A stretch of DNA of 39,893 bases, from the IMG/VR virus record IMGVR_UViG_3300037189_001648, positions 1 through 39,893 of that record; one strand, given 5' to 3'. Shown here in pieces: positions 6,934 to 15,591 of the stretch. Each line of letters begins with the position of its first letter. Positions within the stretch are counted from its first letter, which is position 1. This DNA comes from a virus. The translations under genes and the position numbers were made by a program. The notes under the pieces were generated by a model. It had not been told where the DNA came from and searched no databases. It worked only from the letters and a program-made list of their open reading frames with translations.

Positions 6934-9900
6934 ATGGCTGATTCTGAAGCCAATATTAGAATAGATATTGATACTTCGTCAGCTCTGGCAAGTATTAAAA
7001 ATCTGCAGCGTCAGATTTCGGCCTTTCACACACAAATGCAAGCATCTGGAAATGCAGCTAATGCTGCTATGTCCAGAAACATGCAGAAGAGTCTTGTTGA
7101 CTCTATTAATGCTACTGGCAAGTTTTCTGCCAATCTTTCTACAATAAAAAGCACTACAGAATCTTTTACCAATGCCCTGGAAAAGAACAAGCTCTCTATG
7201 GGAGAGTACTTTAGGTACGCTGGGGCATCTACAAAAACATTCGGACGACTATTCAGATCCGAGTTTGACACAATTGAAAAGGTATCTAGAGAAAGAGTAA
7301 AGACTCTTCAGACCCAATACATTAAGATGGGTCGTGATGCTAGCGGTGCCCTTCAGGCAATTAACGTTAGACCACTTGTTCTAGATATGAATAACTTGGC
7401 TACCCAGACAGCCATGACTGCTCAGAAGCAGCAACTATTCAATCAGCTTGTAAAGCAAGGATCTACAAATCTTTTAAACTGGGGTAAAAATACTCAGTGG
7501 GCTGGTCGCCAGCTTATGGTTGGTTTTACTATTCCTCTTACAATGCTTGGGACTGTTGCCTCTAAGACATTTATGAAGCTCGAAGAGCAGGCAATTCGTT
7601 TTAGACGTGTTTATGGTGAAATGTTTACAACCACTGCTGAAACAGAAAAGGCTTTGGCTGGTATTAGAGACCTTGCAAATGAGTTTACAAAATATGGTGT
7701 TGCCGTAGAAAAGACTATGGAGCTAGCAGCCGATGCTGCAGCAATGGGTCAAATGGGCGCAGGATTAACAGCTCAGGTTGCAGAGGCAACAAGACTTGCC
7801 GTTTTGGGTGGGGTAGAACAGCAAGAAGCACTAAAAACTACAATATCTTTAACTAGTGCTTTTGGTGTTGCAACCGAAGATCTTGCAAGAAAAACAGACT
7901 TTCTTAACGCTGTTGAAAACCAAACTGTTGTAAGTATTGAAGACTTAACTATTGCCATTCCAAAAGCTGGTCCAGTAGTTCAACAGCTGGGTGGAGACGT
8001 CGAGGACTTAGCATTTTTCCTAACCGCCATGAAAGAAGGTGGAATTAATGCCTCTGAAGGTGCCAACGCACTTAAGTCTGGTCTTGCCTCTTTAATTAAT
8101 CCAACTGGCAAAGCTGCAGAAATGCTGGCTCAATTTGGAATAAATGTAAAAAATATTGTAGAGTCAAATAAGGGCGACGTAAAAGGTCTAGTCATTGATT
8201 TTGCTAATGCATTGGATACGCTAGATCCTCTAAACCGTGCTAGAGCAATTGAGCAGCTATTCGGTAAGTTCCAATTTTCACGTATTTCAACACTATTTCA
8301 AAACGTAATTGGACAAGGAAATCAGGCAAGCCGTGTTCTTCAGCTATCTAAGGCAACCGCAGAAGAGCTTGCGATACTTTCAGAGCGAGAATTAAAGAGA
8401 CTAGAGGATTCTCCAGCTTACAAGTTTAAGAAAGCAATGGAAGATCTTCAGGCATCTCTTGCCCCATTTGGAGAACAGTTTATTAAGCTTGTTACACCAA
8501 TTATTGATTTTGGAACATCGCTACTAAAACAGTTTAACAATATGAGCGAAGGCGGAAAAGCCTTTGTAACTGGACTTATTACAACATTGGGATTAATTGC
8601 GCCAGCGGCTCTTATGACTATAGGTCTAGTTGCCAACGGTGTTGCAAACCTGGCAAAGGGATTTAATGCCTTAAGGTTATTCTATCAAAGATTGTCTGGG
8701 TCTTCTACAGAGCTAGGATCTGCAACCCAATACATGACCCAAGAGCAGCTGGAAGCAGCAGCCGTAGCAGCATCTTTGAATCAATCTCATGCAATGCTTA
8801 AGCAAACCTTCACTTCTGAGGCAGCAGCCCTAACTCAGCTAATTGGAGTTTATCAGGCAGCAACTAGAGCACAGCTAGCAATGAATGCGGCTGCCGCAAA
8901 TCAAAGAATTTCTATTGCACCGCCAATAACTAGAATTCCTGGAGGCAGAAGAGCTCAGTCACCACAGGGAACCATTGATGGCATACCAGGATATGCACGT
9001 GGAATTCTTTCTGTTCCAGGTCCTAAGGGGGCTGGAGATGTTGTGCCAGCCATGCTTTCACCAGGAGAAGCAGTTATTCCTGCAAGACAATCCCAAAAGT
9101 ACAGTGGAATTATTTCATCTCTTATTGCCGACAACGTTCCTGGCTTTGCTTTTGGACGAAATCCATTTGCATCGATGCTAGGTAAATCCAGAGTTGCTGT
9201 AAGGATGGGTTCAGGAAACTTTATAAGTGCTCTACAGTCACAAGGAAAGAATGCAAGATATCAAAGCGCATTTGACACACAAAGCGGGGCAGATTACCTC
9301 ACAAAGTATGGTCGCCAAAACCCAAAGCAGCAAAAGCTTCGTGCAAAAATGGAGTCCGATGTTTTTGGTCTAGATCCCAAGACTACTTCAGGATCTGCTA
9401 GGCCTACATACGGATATGCAAAAACTTCTGTTCTTCAGTCAATAGTTAATTCACTGTTTGGAATTAAGGGAAGAAACTTTAATGCCCTTACCAGAAAGCC
9501 AACAGATAAATCTTTGGGTATGTATGGAGATATAGATCTTATAACTAAGGGTTCTGTTGCAAGAAGGTCTTCTGCATACCCTGGTGATATCCTGATGGAT
9601 TACTATAGAGCAAAAAGCTCAGGTGGCCGAGGCACATTCCAGATTGCTCCAATGCGAGGCGCATCAGCTGGACAACTAAGTTCTTTTGAAAGACTGGGAA
9701 TGCCCTTTGGCAGCAACCTAACTCCAGGAACTAAGAACCAGTACACCACTAATCCAAGATCTCCATACGTAGAAACATATACTCCTGGTGGATTTGGATT
9801 TGCCGAAATTGAAAAGGTAATTGCTAGCAATCCAGCAATGGCAAAGCAGATCAAGTCAGAATTAAAATCTGCAGGTCTTGGCTCAATCCGTGTTACAGGG

Positions 9901-12900
9901 CCTGGCTTTATAGCAAGGCTATTTAAAAAGCTTGGGGTTCCAGGATATAGCAAGGGCATCGCCTCTGTACCAGGCGGTTCTCAGTCTGGACTTTTCCAGG
10001 GATTGATGAGTGGAACGATAGGTGCAGCACTAGCCCTTACTGACCAAGATAGAGCGGTATTCCGTGATCTTAACCTAACTGGCTCCCAGCAAAAGAAATA
10101 TTCTGAGCTTCTAGGATACACCTATAGTGGTGGCAGAAGCTATAGAACTGTCCCAACAAGCTTAGCCATGTTTGATGCTGCAGGATCTGCTGACATTGGT
10201 AGACAAATTCTTGCAAAATTAGCACAGGCAAATATCGGTAGCCAAGATGCTGCATCTATAATGAGCGATGCTGCAAATGAATCAAAAACACAGCTAGGTG
10301 CTCAAAAAACTCTTAGAGCCATAGACTCATTAATTTTAACTGCAAACCAGAGTGGAACTAAGCTAGGATCAGGAGTCTTAAAGAAATCTTTCAGAGAAGC
10401 TATGGGCATACAAGCTTTTTCAATTAAAAAAGAATTTGCTCATATCGGATCTGGAACAAAAATATCTGCTGCAGAAGCATTAAGGCTATCTGATCAGGGA
10501 ATACTTAAGCTTTCTCCTAGTCAAAAAAGAGCTTTGCAAACAGTTGCCGATCCAAATGCTACAATGTTAGACCTAAAGAGTGGCTTTGGTTTTGACATAG
10601 AAAACAAAGAAATAGGGCCAGATGGAAAGCTAGTAAGACTAAATGCTCAAATGGCAGAAGGGCAAAATTCAGATGGGTCAATTAAGTATGCAAAGGGAGC
10701 AGACAAGGATGCATTACTTAGAGAATTCAGAAGATCTGGCATTTCTAAATGGGATCGCTCTATTATTTTTGGCGGAGGAGACCCAGCTGCTTTAGCTCCT
10801 CAGACGAAGATGTTTGATGACACCATCACTAAAATTTTAGACGATCTTCCGCAAGGAACAAAGGTAGTAGATTCTGAAGCATCAGCCAGATACTTAGAAA
10901 GTAAAGGTGTCAAAGCCATAAGTATGGAAAGAATTTATGACTTAGCCAAAAAGCGTTTGCCAGCAGGAACTAAAGATTTACAGTACATCTTTAAAAGATC
11001 ACAAACTTCACCAGCCGAAATAAGAAACAAAGACCTTCCTGGCTTTAAGAGCAAGGGGCTGGAAAGAAAGCCAATTGGGATACCAATGAGGCCACTGGCT
11101 AAGCAGTTCCCAGGATCTAAAGAAAACCTTGAATATGCTAAGTCTCCAAATACTAATTTCTTTAAGGCATTCTTTAGAAGAAGAGGCTTTGCCTTTAATA
11201 AGGGCGTAGTGTCTGTTCCAGGCCCAAAGGGTGCTGGGGACATCGTTCCAGCAATGCTTTCTCCAGGAGAAGCTGTAATACCAGCTCAAATGTCAAAGAA
11301 GTATGCACCACTAATTAATTCTATGATTGCCGATAACGTACCTGGATACGTAAAAGGAAAGACGGCACCTGGAGGTACGCTACCAAATACAGCTGAGCCA
11401 GTTCAGGTTGAGCTTACCCAAAAGTCATCAAGAGGTCTTGCTGGCAATCTAAAGCAGGGCTTTGGCGATGCAGCTAGAAGAGCAATTGCAGCAGCTACTG
11501 GAGTTAGAGCTCCAGGAACTGGAACGGCCCCAGCCGATCTTGATCCAACAGAACCAGCCACAGCAGGAAAGAGATCTATGGCTGGTCGTGTAGGCGGAGT
11601 TGGCATGCTTGCTGGTACCGCTGCTATGATGTACAGCATGACTGGAGGCCCAGCGTCAGACTTAGCTGGAATGGCCTCGCTACCATTAATGATGCTTCCT
11701 ATGATTGCAAATAAAATAGGTTTGGCACTAGTTGCAGTTGGGGCTTTAGCTGCAGGAATTATTTATCTAACCACTAAGCTATCAGATGCCACTAAGGCTG
11801 GGCTAGAGGCTGGTAAGTCTATGGCAATGACAAGCGAAAAGCTTAACGAAATGTCTGAGATTACTGGAAAAGTAACAGCAAGTCAAATTGCCGAAAGACA
11901 AAGAGAAAAACAGCTAAGTGGTCAAGGTGCAAAGAAGAGAGAGTTCGGACAAAACTTCTTAGAATCTCAGGCTGGAAAGAAGCTGCTTTCCGATGCAGAG
12001 GCAATGACAACATCTGGAATGAGCAGTGCAGAAGTTGCCTCAAGCATTGCTAGCCAACTTTCTTATGCAATAATGCAGGGTGCAATAACTGACCAACAGG
12101 CTAGAAGTATTGCGTTTGGGCTTTCAGAAAAACTCGGAGACTATTCTATAAGCGCAAACATCGGTGGAAAGTTAACACAGCTTTTTGGTCCAAACGGAGA
12201 GAACCTTCTTAATGGAGATCCAATAGAAATTTCTTTGGCAATCCAAAAAGATTCTCTTGCACAGCAAAACAAGGCTTTTGACAACTCAATAGAATTAATG
12301 AAAAAGAATGCCGAGGTATCTGGTGGTTCTGTAGGCAACCTAATCGGTGCTGGAATTATGACAGCCGTTGGGGCAGCCCTAACTGCAACTGGTATTGGTG
12401 GTCTTCTTGGTATCGGACTTATTTCTGGAGGTGTTGCTGCAGCTGGTGCAACCCTAGGAGTAGAGGCACTCGGAGATCAGGAAGAAAACAACAAGGCTCG
12501 TGGCGTAGCCGTACAGCTTGGTGCAGAACAAATTGCACAAAACCAGGGATTGCTAGATTCTCTAGAAAGACAGTACGACGGTCAGATATCCCAGCTTGAG
12601 GCAGAAAAAGAAGCTGCAACAACTAGAAAAGAAAGACTTGCCATAGAGAAGCAGATTAGCGATAAGATTGCTGAAAGAAATGCTGGGCTGGCAAAACAAA
12701 AAGCAGCAAATGCAGCGGTATTTGATTCTCTAGTAGAGCAAGCAAGAATAATGGGATCTGGCTTCACAGACTCAATAAACTTGGCGATTGATTCAAGATT
12801 TGCAAATGCAACTGGAGCCATGAAGGCAGCTGCTGATCTAGCGAAGAGTTCGCTGGCTGGGTTGGAGCAGGGAGACTTTAAGACAACGCTTCAGATAGGT

Positions 12901-15591
12901 TTGGCAAGCGGCGAATTTGATCCAGTCACTATTTCAAACCTCATTAATGCTAATAAAGAATCTAACGGCAATATCAGCTCTAAGTTTAATCTAATGGTAA
13001 AAGCAGTTGGAACTGCAGATTCAAACCAGGTAATTCAATTACTAAATGCCGCAGGGGTTGAAGGTAAAGAGTACGAGGCCGTCTTTAGCCTTGTTACTAA
13101 AGATAAAGCAGACATAGACTATAACCTAAAGGCACTTGCTGAACTAAACAGCATGCAGAGTGAATATGGTATAGGCGTTGAAATAACTGCCGAAAACACT
13201 GAAGTTATCGGAAATCTAGTAAAGGACACAAAGGGTCTTCCAAAGGAAGTAACTCAGACAGTCTTGACAAACTTCATATCTACGATGCCAGCTGGTCCAT
13301 CAAAGGGAATCCTGGAATCAGTTCTTGCAAATTGGGATGTCTTGTCTGGTGGAAAGAAAACAATGAATGCAGAGTTAATTGTTGACTTTGCAATTGGAAA
13401 ATACAACCAGACAGCCGTTGACGCTTGGTACTACACGGTTGGCCCAGGTAAAAACATCAGAAGCGAAACTGCAATGTCTAGAATTACTGCAGAACAGCGG
13501 ATGGCTGCATTCCTTGGTCAACCATCTGAAACTGATGGTGGTACTGGAACCAACACTGAGGGAGAGACAACAACTACTGGTGCAGGAGCTAAAAAGACAA
13601 CCTGGATTGATGACACACTTAAAAAGCTAAAGAACCTAACTAATGCATCAATTAATGCAAACGGTGGACTAAAAGAGCTAAAGCGTGTAATCGATGGAAC
13701 TAAGCTAAACGTGTTCGACGGACTTGGACAAAAACTTGCAAAAGCTGGCATTTCAGAAGCATTTGCTGATGAGCTTATGGGCATGGGCAAAGATGCTAGA
13801 AAGAAATTTGTTCAAATAGGAAAAGATGGAACAGCAATTCTTACTAAGGCTGGTAAGAGAAGAGAGGCCGCTTATGCTAGAATTGCAGTTGGTGAATTTG
13901 GGCTAAATCAGGCTAGAACCATTCAAGAGACAAAAGACCAGACTGTTGCAGTAAACAGGCTAGTAGCTGCAGGATTATCTCTAGAAGAGGCCTACAACGC
14001 TGTTGAAAATGCTGGAGTAGCAGCTGCGCTTGCTGGAAAGCAGATAAGTGAATCTGCACTTACTAAGCTAATTGCAGATACTAAGGCTGCAACTGCTGCA
14101 ACAAAAGAATTCCAAAATGTAGCCTCAGTTCAGATAGCCGCACAAGATGCAAACAACTTGGCTAAGGCTGCTAACGCTCTTGAAAAGAGCTCTTACAGCT
14201 TTGCAGAAAGACAGGCAATTCTTAGCGACTCAGCACTCACAGAGCTATTCCTGAGCGGTAAAAATCAAAAGCTTCTTCAGGCTAGAGTAAAGCAAATCCT
14301 TAATCCAGAGTTCTTACAGGGTCTGTTTGACGAAGGCTTTAATGCTGCAATGAATGCAATCTCAGTAAAAGAAAGAAAGATAGAGCTAGACTTTGAAGTA
14401 AAGACTCAGCCAGATCTAAAGATTATTGATGCTGCACAGAATGATATCGATAAGATATCGTTTACAATTGATGACCTTCAGGCTGGAATAAAGGAAATTG
14501 CAGACCAGGAAGATGTGGTTAACAAGAAGTACGCTGACCGTAGCAAGGCCCTGAGTGAGATAAAAGAAATAAACTCAGACCTAGTAGCTCAGCAAAAAGC
14601 TCAGCTTACCGTAGCAGATGCACTATCTAGAGGAGATATTGCTGCAGCTGCAAAGGCAGCCCAAGATCTTCGTGCTACTCAGGCTCAAACAAGCATAGAC
14701 GCTCAGCAAAAGGCCCTAGAGCTTTCAAAGGAGAAAGAGCTAGCGACCCTAGTATCTTCTAATGGCAAAACTAGAAAGCAGCTAGAAGATGAGATTAAAA
14801 AGTTGCAAGATGAAATCTTTGCTATAGAGGAAAAGAGGCTGGAGCCAGCACAAGAAAGAATTAGATTAGCAGACATCGAGAAACAAGCCCTTATAGATTC
14901 CGTAACTGTTTTGGATAAGACTAGACTAGCTTGGCAACAAATCGAATCCGAAATAGAGAACTCTAGAATTGGAAGTACTCGCTATACTGAATCAATTTCT
15001 AATGCAATCGCAATGGTAGAAAGCTTAAAGACTGCATGGAAAAATGCTACTCCAGGAGAAACGCAGGTTGACGTTCCTCTGGTAAGTCAGGGCACTGGGG
15101 CTCAGGCTCCAGTTGCAGGCCAGCCAAATGCCGAATTTAAGGGTACAAGGCCAGGCCCAGATCACGATGGGAAAAAGAAGGGTGAGGTTTGGGTTGGTCC
15201 AAATGCAACCTGGAAGTGGGATGGCAAGAAGTGGAATAAGATTTCTAATGTTGGCAAGGTTAATGCAGCTAAGTTTAACCAGGGTGGCTATGTTGCCAAG
15301 ATGTTTGCGGGTGGAGGCCTAGCCAACGTAAAGTTTGCCAAGGGCGGAACCGACATTGTCCCAGCAATGCTAACACCTGGCGAATTTGTAATGAGAAAGT
15401 ATGCTGTTGAGAACTTTGGCCTAGATAATATGAAGGCAATAAATAACGGAACATATTCTGGCGAATCAGTGTATAATTATAGTATCAACGTAAACGTACA
15501 AACAGATGCTAACGCAGACCAAATTGCAAGGAATGTAATGACACAGATTAAGAGAATTGACTCTCAGAGAATCAGGGGTAATAGGTTCTAA
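6934..15591 (+). CDS. Tape measure protein with embedded enzyme-like insert
   Basis: A 2885-residue protein, ribosome site GAGGTG seven bases before the ATG. It sets tail length and is ejected with the DNA. Residues 1-200 are helical; residues 210-545 look like the TP901-type tape-measure core (PhageMin_Tail family). Hydrophobic stretches near 545-575, 1550-1612 and 1803-1845 can span membranes. Residues 742-1417 are not coiled-coil and are flanked by two near-identical hinge motifs (see repeats). Within them, residues about 760-1000 resemble ADP-ribosyltransferase-type domains of phage MuF/DUF3626 proteins (candidate R823, S879/S880, E947). Residues 1030-1410 are an unrecognised module. The rest (1860-2740) is helical and coiled-coil-like, ending with a third hinge copy. 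By the usual 0.15 nm per residue rule the tail would be about 320-430 nm, depending on whether the insert counts. Ends with a TAATG overlap. Confidence 0.9.
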   Translation: MADSEANIRIDIDTSSALASIKNLQRQISAFHTQMQASGNAANAAMSRNMQKSLVDSINATGKFSANLSTIKSTTESFTNALEKNKLSMGEYFRYAGASTKTFGRLFRSEFDTIEKVSRERVKTLQTQYIKMGRDASGALQAINVRPLVLDMNNLATQTAMTAQKQQLFNQLVKQGSTNLLNWGKNTQWAGRQLMVGFTIPLTMLGTVASKTFMKLEEQAIRFRRVYGEMFTTTAETEKALAGIRDLANEFTKYGVAVEKTMELAADAAAMGQMGAGLTAQVAEATRLAVLGGVEQQEALKTTISLTSAFGVATEDLARKTDFLNAVENQTVVSIEDLTIAIPKAGPVVQQLGGDVEDLAFFLTAMKEGGINASEGANALKSGLASLINPTGKAAEMLAQFGINVKNIVESNKGDVKGLVIDFANALDTLDPLNRARAIEQLFGKFQFSRISTLFQNVIGQGNQASRVLQLSKATAEELAILSERELKRLEDSPAYKFKKAMEDLQASLAPFGEQFIKLVTPIIDFGTSLLKQFNNMSEGGKAFVTGLITTLGLIAPAALMTIGLVANGVANLAKGFNALRLFYQRLSGSSTELGSATQYMTQEQLEAAAVAASLNQSHAMLKQTFTSEAAALTQLIGVYQAATRAQLAMNAAAANQRISIAPPITRIPGGRRAQSPQGTIDGIPGYARGILSVPGPKGAGDVVPAMLSPGEAVIPARQSQKYSGIISSLIADNVPGFAFGRNPFASMLGKSRVAVRMGSGNFISALQSQGKNARYQSAFDTQSGADYLTKYGRQNPKQQKLRAKMESDVFGLDPKTTSGSARPTYGYAKTSVLQSIVNSLFGIKGRNFNALTRKPTDKSLGMYGDIDLITKGSVARRSSAYPGDILMDYYRAKSSGGRGTFQIAPMRGASAGQLSSFERLGMPFGSNLTPGTKNQYTTNPRSPYVETYTPGGFGFAEIEKVIASNPAMAKQIKSELKSAGLGSIRVTGPGFIARLFKKLGVPGYSKGIASVPGGSQSGLFQGLMSGTIGAALALTDQDRAVFRDLNLTGSQQKKYSELLGYTYSGGRSYRTVPTSLAMFDAAGSADIGRQILAKLAQANIGSQDAASIMSDAANESKTQLGAQKTLRAIDSLILTANQSGTKLGSGVLKKSFREAMGIQAFSIKKEFAHIGSGTKISAAEALRLSDQGILKLSPSQKRALQTVADPNATMLDLKSGFGFDIENKEIGPDGKLVRLNAQMAEGQNSDGSIKYAKGADKDALLREFRRSGISKWDRSIIFGGGDPAALAPQTKMFDDTITKILDDLPQGTKVVDSEASARYLESKGVKAISMERIYDLAKKRLPAGTKDLQYIFKRSQTSPAEIRNKDLPGFKSKGLERKPIGIPMRPLAKQFPGSKENLEYAKSPNTNFFKAFFRRRGFAFNKGVVSVPGPKGAGDIVPAMLSPGEAVIPAQMSKKYAPLINSMIADNVPGYVKGKTAPGGTLPNTAEPVQVELTQKSSRGLAGNLKQGFGDAARRAIAAATGVRAPGTGTAPADLDPTEPATAGKRSMAGRVGGVGMLAGTAAMMYSMTGGPASDLAGMASLPLMMLPMIANKIGLALVAVGALAAGIIYLTTKLSDATKAGLEAGKSMAMTSEKLNEMSEITGKVTASQIAERQREKQLSGQGAKKREFGQNFLESQAGKKLLSDAEAMTTSGMSSAEVASSIASQLSYAIMQGAITDQQARSIAFGLSEKLGDYSISANIGGKLTQLFGPNGENLLNGDPIEISLAIQKDSLAQQNKAFDNSIELMKKNAEVSGGSVGNLIGAGIMTAVGAALTATGIGGLLGIGLISGGVAAAGATLGVEALGDQEENNKARGVAVQLGAEQIAQNQGLLDSLERQYDGQISQLEAEKEAATTRKERLAIEKQISDKIAERNAGLAKQKAANAAVFDSLVEQARIMGSGFTDSINLAIDSRFANATGAMKAAADLAKSSLAGLEQGDFKTTLQIGLASGEFDPVTISNLINANKESNGNISSKFNLMVKAVGTADSNQVIQLLNAAGVEGKEYEAVFSLVTKDKADIDYNLKALAELNSMQSEYGIGVEITAENTEVIGNLVKDTKGLPKEVTQTVLTNFISTMPAGPSKGILESVLANWDVLSGGKKTMNAELIVDFAIGKYNQTAVDAWYYTVGPGKNIRSETAMSRITAEQRMAAFLGQPSETDGGTGTNTEGETTTTGAGAKKTTWIDDTLKKLKNLTNASINANGGLKELKRVIDGTKLNVFDGLGQKLAKAGISEAFADELMGMGKDARKKFVQIGKDGTAILTKAGKRREAAYARIAVGEFGLNQARTIQETKDQTVAVNRLVAAGLSLEEAYNAVENAGVAAALAGKQISESALTKLIADTKAATAATKEFQNVASVQIAAQDANNLAKAANALEKSSYSFAERQAILSDSALTELFLSGKNQKLLQARVKQILNPEFLQGLFDEGFNAAMNAISVKERKIELDFEVKTQPDLKIIDAAQNDIDKISFTIDDLQAGIKEIADQEDVVNKKYADRSKALSEIKEINSDLVAQQKAQLTVADALSRGDIAAAAKAAQDLRATQAQTSIDAQQKALELSKEKELATLVSSNGKTRKQLEDEIKKLQDEIFAIEEKRLEPAQERIRLADIEKQALIDSVTVLDKTRLAWQQIESEIENSRIGSTRYTESISNAIAMVESLKTAWKNATPGETQVDVPLVSQGTGAQAPVAGQPNAEFKGTRPGPDHDGKKKGEVWVGPNATWKWDGKKWNKISNVGKVNAAKFNQGGYVAKMFAGGGLANVKFAKGGTDIVPAMLTPGEFVMRKYAVENFGLDNMKAINNGTYSGESVYNYSINVNVQTDANADQIARNVMTQIKRIDSQRIRGNRF
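8989..9156 (+). repeat. Tape-measure hinge motif, copy 1
   Basis: Residues 686-741: G-Y-A-R-G then SVPGPKGAGD, VPAMLSPGEAVIPA, and IADNVPG near the end. It is nearly identical to residues 1418-1475 and brackets the insert. The VPAMLSPGEAVIP core is common in tape-measure proteins, where it may be a flexible or processing-linked segment; that function is not established. Confidence 0.85.
9211..9935 (+). other. ADP-ribosyltransferase-like segment inside the tape measure
   Basis: Residues about 760-1000 of the tape measure. The order of motifs matches phage MuF-linked and DUF3626 enzymes that share the R-S-E ADP-ribosyltransferase pattern: YQSAFDTQSG, then RPTYGY (R823), YGDIDLITKGSVARRSSAY with P-G-D after it (S879, S880), and PYVETYTPGGFGFAEIEKV (E947). 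What is seen is the order and spacing of these motifs; that the domain is an active ADP-ribosyltransferase is inferred. Confidence 0.5.
9940..11160 (+). other. Unrecognised module in the tape-measure insert
   Basis: Residues about 1003-1409. It begins with a short third partial hinge (GYSKGIASVPGG), then a predicted mix of helices and strands without heptads. Noticeable segments are FAHIGSGTKISAAEAL, a TMLDLKSGFGFDIENK stretch, and WDRSIIFGGGDPAAL. I do not recognise a family. It lies between the ART-like segment and the second hinge repeat. Confidence 0.4.
11185..11358 (+). repeat. Tape-measure hinge motif, copy 2
   Basis: Residues 1418-1475, near copy of residues 686-741, with GVVSVPGPKGAGD, VPAMLSPGEAVIPA and IADNVPGYVKG. 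Marks the end of the insert. A shorter relative (GGTDIVPAMLTPGEFV) occurs near the C-terminus at residues about 2804-2819. Confidence 0.85.
15340..15393 (+). repeat. Tape-measure hinge motif, C-terminal degenerate copy
   Basis: Residues about 2803-2820 read AKGGTDIVPAMLTPGEFV: it keeps the VPAML-PGE core of the two longer copies and is followed by a basic helix. It shows the motif recurs at the end of the protein, not only around the insert. Confidence 0.7.

Follow-up and report, generated by a model that had tools for sequence, protein, structure and literature searches.

The tape measure protein (TMP) of the virus record IMGVR_UViG_3300037189_001648 (IMG/VR) contains, embedded within its chain, a separate globular domain spanning approximately residues 745-992 (9166..9909, plus strand), and it is nearly certain that this domain adopts an ADP-ribosyltransferase (ART) fold. 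The window, namely the whole stretch of DNA analyzed here (39,893 nucleotides, positions 1 to 39,893 of the record), encodes the TMP in a single uninterrupted open reading frame of 2885 amino acids (6934..15591, plus strand, as are all features below). The frame matches nine PHROG tape measure families and contains the conserved TMP core, with a Pfam PhageMin_Tail match at residues 246-444 (7669..8265, E 1e-23). It is well supported that the ART domain constitutes a divergent branch related to the MuF-linked and DUF3626 domains of phages, structurally close to SopF and DarT. Within the TMP, it is one of several interchangeable cassettes in a slot located behind a conserved linker repeat. As a whole, we consider it reasonably probable that the cassette in this exchangeable slot acts by NAD+-dependent ADP-ribosylation in the host.

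Relatives of the domain were initially identified among 80 TMP loci retrieved with the TMP core, and then by profile; all loci are numbered with the prefix L below. The ART region of the window aligns over its full length with 21 other TMP copies, at a mean column identity of 43%. The AlphaFold2 model computed from this 22-member alignment has a pLDDT of 85.4 and a pTM of 0.81. SopF structures lead the Foldseek ranking of the model (E 5.6e-7 and 1.9e-6), followed by DarT (7.5e-4), and VIA-align yielded Z 11.8 over 188 residues for SopF, 8.9-10.4 for DarT, 7.7 for the tRNA 2'-phosphotransferase, a fold relative, and about 3-4 for R-S-E toxins. The ten best PDB fold matches are ADP-ribosyltransferases or tRNA 2'-phosphotransferase. 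As a control, the second cargo domain of the same TMP (described below) was treated by the same procedure and gave no ART match at E <= 1; the ART result is therefore not an artefact of the method. An initial annotation of the window had proposed an ART-like domain at residues 760-1000 of the TMP, to be checked by structure prediction and a Foldseek search. This analysis returned ART folds and bears out the separate, embedded domain, but places its edges nearer to residues 745-992 (about 9166-9909).

The link to MuF-linked and DUF3626 proteins, also put forward in the initial annotation, becomes apparent among the relatives. A wider-family profile recovers SopF by sequence alone (E 1.6e-5). 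DUF3626 matches were obtained at E <= 1 for 5 of the 22 TMP copies (best 9.5e-7), and the 27-bit cut-off of the Pfam DUF3626 model (PF12294) is passed by L006 (28.5) and L065 (27.6). The window domain lies below this cut-off, with no match in searches with that model, and the Pfam DarT model gave no match to it at E <= 0.001. As the sequence of the window domain alone finds no match in Pfam, PHROG or PDB, its homology is visible only through its relatives and its structure. Likewise, tblastn of the window domain against isolated phages gave no match; the more canonical relative L006 did match isolates.

Outside tape measures, the same domain is found in several phage proteins. The MuF protein gp33 of Lactococcus phage TP901-1 has a Phage_Mu_F match (E 1.2e-27) followed by a C-terminal DUF3626 domain (1.8e-6). 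Actinomycetia phage DSL-LC01 carries the domain in a protein encoded beside the portal gene (DUF3626 7e-10, 38.8 bits), and mycobacteriophage SWU1 in gene 2 (DUF3626 1.8e-6). Using hhalign, the DSL-LC01 protein was matched with 98.0% probability (E 2.3e-13) and the TP901-1 protein with 97.5% (E 5.1e-12). A tree was built from 87 distinct domains belonging to TMPs, MuF proteins and further phage proteins. In it, a branch with SH-aLRT 95 has the 23 TMP copies on one side, placed among MuF copies and others. A single capture of the ART domain into tape measures would be the simplest reading of this tree, for which a single TMP family served to sample the TMP loci. In several phage loci (L178, L147, L149, L160, L170, L181 and L183), DUF3626-like domains additionally occur in twos or threes, either within a single protein or across adjacent genes. 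In DSL-LC01 (L115:13886-23755), an unannotated 3289-amino-acid protein follows shortly after the DUF3626-type protein and is possibly a large polyvalent protein.

The architecture comes from metagenomic sources only, with no isolate in the phage collection, as would be expected if misassembly or annotation had joined a separate gene to the TMP. The probability of such an artefact is negligible, as many independent contigs, diverged in sequence, show this fusion in frame and without stops, and nine checked ART-TMP records have one ART copy each; misassembly is ruled out by this recurrence. No Phage_Mu_F match is present in the nine ART-carrying records.

Residue conservation was counted over the 87 domains. 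G865, D885 (9586..9588) and E947 (9772..9774), the candidate catalytic glutamate, are kept in 87/87. R803 follows with 86/87 (9340..9342), P824 with 85/87, Y864 with 84/87 (Y864-G865, 9523..9528), and Y826 of the RPxYG block, the candidate tyrosine of a Y..E active site, with 82/87 (9409..9411). Position 880 is S or T in 85/87 (9571..9573), and R823 is kept in 70/87 (9400..9402), being replaced by I in L108, M in TP901-1 and P in SWU1. In the AlphaFold2 model, R823, S879/S880 and E947 are located on or adjoining core strands, with E947 on model strand 210-215, a late core strand.

The initial annotation gave the motif positions exactly (RPTYGY from R823, YGDIDLITK from Y864, ARRSS for S879/S880 and PYVET for E947), and its reading of them as an R-S-E core is not supported. 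A classical R-S-E enzyme (ARTC/VIP2-like) with the triad R823, S879/S880 and E947 draws on the presence of R823 in 21/23 TMP copies, the S or T at position 880, the invariant E947, and the known VIP2-type ART-MuF fusions of actinobacteriophages (PMC7302621). It is nevertheless highly improbable, given that R823 drops to 70/87 over all domains and that the strongest residues are E947, D885, G865, R803, Y864 and Y826. Furthermore, two residues before E947 the family has Y or F (Y945 in the window), which leaves it without the E/Q-x-E of the R-S-E class. By fold, its neighbours are SopF and DarT, and R-S-E toxins score far lower.

With respect to the H-Y-E class (ARTD), Y826 (82/87) and E947 (87/87) are conserved, there is no conserved H, and the candidate first position, R757, varies. 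The H-Y-D triad of the polyvalent-protein ART (Tox-ART-HYD2) differs in that E, not D, is found in 87/87. SopF, which contains DUF3626 (PMC6682159), is an ADP-ribosyltransferase whose triad is I-Y-E (PMC10333799), and the active residues of DarT2 are R51, Y71 and E160 (PMC11281641, PMC11543638). The order of the residues and the R-to-Y spacing (23 residues for R803-Y826 in the window, 20 in DarT2) suggest that R803-Y826-E947 is equivalent to R51-Y71-E160. Judged from the alignments, the residue pattern is nearer to DarT and SopF than to R-S-E.

Across the TMP copies of the profile alignment, E947, D885, G865, Y826, Y864 and R803 are present in 23/23. For ART-domain pairs in which dN/dS could be estimated, values range from 0.11 to 0.25, and the domain is under purifying selection. 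The conservation of the active site against a mean identity of 43%, together with these dN/dS values, argues for a working domain, and we regard the ART domain of the TMP as probably an active enzyme.

Several observations weigh against an active and delivered enzyme. The window domain alone reaches no Pfam model, and the E/Q-x-E motif that it lacks is common to many ARTs. The pattern E-x-Q-x-H, near-invariant in MuF and stand-alone copies, is lost in TMP copies: Q949 is found in 64/64 non-TMP relatives versus 9/23 TMP copies, H951 in 63/64 versus 0/23, and the window (9766-9795, residues 945-954) reads E-T-Y-T-P in its place. The loss of Q949 and H951 may reflect altered specificity or lost catalysis. 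A few ART copies look damaged, and in L127 (4100-4620) the RPxYG block is missing, the TMP frame ends immediately behind the ART domain, and the linker carries on in a different frame, a state of decay or an assembly error. A Macro domain, which would serve ADP-ribose removal, was not found in the nine ART-carrying records, and none is required. Finally, a fold of about 28 kDa would not pass the tail tube in its folded state.

The absence of E-x-Q-x-H from TMP copies and the state of L127 also speak for a domain that has kept the ART fold and lost its enzyme function in the TMP branch, serving as a ruler-length or binding module (membrane, chaperone or receptor contact). Tail length is set by TMP length, and in the TMP of phage TM4, removal of 114 residues with the peptidoglycan-hydrolase motif mt3 leaves the tail about 20 nm shorter (PMC1796659). 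We consider this reading unlikely, since a purely structural role is at odds with six residues retained in all 23 TMP copies at 43% mean column identity. A role in length alone is likewise opposed by the unrelated domains found in the same slot, and it does not predict such specific conserved residues.

The slot itself is delimited by repeats. Linker repeat 1 (residues 687-741, VPGPKGAGDVVPAMLSPGEAVIPA.., 8992..9156) precedes the ART domain, and linker repeat 2 (residues 1421-1475, 11194..11358) closes the cargo slot; both were recognized by a linker profile, which also detected a C-terminal copy of the linker-type motif (residues 2795-2842, 15316..15459). On the DNA level, the two linkers contain a repeat of 134 nucleotides (9010-9143 and 11212-11345) that is 72% identical and 2202 bases apart. 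Between the two cargo domains, a truncated linker remnant remains in the sequence (VPGYSKGIASVPGG, residues 1002-1015, 9937..9978). Hydrophobic, membrane-segment-like stretches, identified with a Kyte-Doolittle window, flank the cargo slot upstream (residues 548-566, 8575..8631) and downstream (residues 1595-1613, 11716..11772).

In nearly all TMPs of the set that are not cut short, the linker VPGPKGAGD-VPAMLSPGEAVIPA.. is located near residue 665-725; a second linker often occurs further on, and the C-terminus bears a related motif. The ART domain starts 6-14 residues past a linker in 18/25 copies, and in 10 the next linker comes within 28 residues. It is positioned later in L101 and L103 and far downstream in L100 and L108; the domain therefore moves. 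Exchange of cargo is most directly seen between TMPs with closely similar cores. L003, carrying the ART domain, and L008, carrying a kinase-like cargo, are 90.6% identical in the core and 25.5% in the cargo; L005 and L006 share 91.9% and 17.9%, respectively; and L015 and L033 are 91.7% identical in the core, 84.7% at the C-terminus and 19.6% in the cargo. Mapped onto the core tree, the presence of ART requires 10 changes, and the cargo groups as a whole require 34. ART carriers make up 10/80 of the loci fetched by the TMP core alone; the 25/82 TMPs with ART in the full set are no prevalence estimate, as some loci were fetched with the domain itself.

The second cargo domain of the window (D2, residues 1150-1365, 10381..11028) has a confidently predicted fold (pLDDT 90, pTM 0.80) and homologs in 24 TMPs. 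H1170, N1237, G1269, W1273, S1276 and D1313 are invariant across 20 relatives. No PDB match was found for this fold (best Foldseek E 1.6, VIA Z 2.7), which is not proof of a new fold. The cargo counts in other TMPs are 29 for kinase-like, 24 for D2, 12 for ASHIQ and 6 for ENN, and no convincing PDB match was obtained with the profiles of the kinase-like, ASHIQ and ENN cargo. The kinase-like cargo (29 TMPs; L029:11705-12517 with 10 relatives) displays the invariant pattern V-VKP..A-AE..R-DKDL---N..DVG and has no Pfam match. Behind it, one TMP (L064:11696-13378) carries a HAD acid-phosphatase cargo (E 3.6e-11). Two cargo families (L014:11711-12502 and L034:12014-12616) feature invariant H, W and N (R-H..W..TG-ENN and SH..W..N..H) without a database match, and are perhaps nuclease-like.

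Tape measures have mostly been seen as rulers and DNA conduits. We tentatively put forward, at slightly less than even confidence, that the TMP of this phage lineage is a modular delivery chassis carrying exchangeable cassettes (ART, kinase-like, phosphatase, perhaps nuclease-like, and one without a known fold), which are bracketed by linkers between membrane-segment-like stretches and would be released at the first moment of infection. Such a chassis would resemble polymorphic toxins, with payloads swapped on a fixed trunk. If true, the ruler would be an effector carrier of which few copies are delivered before the DNA, and this would account for the differing mid-regions of TMPs whose cores are almost identical. 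It yields candidate first-minute effectors, including one confident predicted fold without a known relative, and the fate of the ejected TMP in the host, a long-standing question, becomes directly testable.

TMPs are ejected at infection. In the proposed mechanism, the ART domain would be threaded unfolded in the tail tube as part of the ruler, leave with the TMP ahead of the DNA, and refold on the host side of the membrane. There, it would use NAD+ to ADP-ribosylate a host macromolecule that would hinder takeover, be it a protein or, as for DarT, DNA. We infer catalysis, target, refolding and delivery to the host cytoplasm from the observations above, and we place delivery of an active ART enzyme into the new host at somewhat better than even. 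During lambda injection, the phage protein that becomes labelled by an inner-membrane complex of the host is the TMP (PMC13190303). The shortening of the TM4 tail indicates that embedded domains belong to the stretched ruler and would therefore have to refold later. The VIP2-type ARTs fused to MuF proteins in actinobacteriophages (PMC7302621) offer a further virion-protein setting.

The location of the cargo between two hydrophobic segments does not fix its membrane side. Moreover, the TMP is made late in infection. Both points would accommodate an active enzyme that acts elsewhere: on the virion, on the cell envelope as it is crossed, or, late in infection, in the cell that produces the phage. 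NAD+, however, is cytoplasmic, and an envelope-side ART would therefore lack its substrate. The virion-borne precedent T4 Alt, which acts after injection (PMC5512222), likewise counts against action elsewhere, and we judge this alternative quite improbable relative to ADP-ribosylation in the newly infected host.

The genes around the TMP gene are consistent with a structural module comprising a head protease, head proteins and minor tail proteins, followed by a replication module with DnaB, primase, DNA polymerase III alpha and RecA. The nearest TMPs of isolated phages come from Streptomyces phages (~30% identity), and an actinobacterial host is therefore likely. The TMP of IMGVR_UViG_3300032307_000117 is identical to that of the window over the searched stretches; the two records are therefore probably from the same virus. 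Bacterial and archaeal genomes were scanned once with the ART domain and once with the TMP core; no relative was detected, and hence no prophage host. PADLOC gave no meaningful match, and no tRNA or Rfam matches were found in the window.

Virion-borne phage ARTs are known from T4 Alt and the MuF fusions; new here is the ART inside a TMP, for which no report was found in the literature searched, which comprised open-licence papers only. The closest likeness is to DUF3626/SopF, with its fold similarity (Z 11.8), its profile match (E 1.6e-5) and relatives above the Pfam cut-off. The window domain differs in falling below detection on its own, in belonging to a TMP branch without E-x-Q-x-H, and in being set inside a phage tape measure; SopF acts on the eukaryotic V-ATPase (PMC10333799). 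DarT shares the fold (Z up to 10.4) and the R..Y..E order, whereas the window lacks a Pfam DarT match and the Q-x-E. MuF proteins with a C-terminal DUF3626 or VIP2 ART (TP901-1 gp33; Microbacterium phages) similarly carry an ART passenger on a virion protein, but as C-terminal fusions to a head protein, VIP2 belonging to another ART class (PMC7302621). ARTs, kinases and other effectors are likewise delivered with the virion in polyvalent proteins and T4 Alt (PMC5512222); the polyvalent ARTs are of the H-Y-D type and Alt is R-S-E, and tape measures are unmentioned in that work. The contractile injection system effectors Sle1 and Tme use a tape-measure-like architecture for cargo (PMC13277306), yet belong to bacterial nanomachines, and that paper contains no ADP-ribosylation term. 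Lastly, mt3 of TM4 provides an enzyme motif embedded in a TMP reading frame and counted in tail length (PMC1796659). In contrast to its action on the cell wall, the TMP of the window features an NAD-enzyme fold with presumed cytoplasmic targets.

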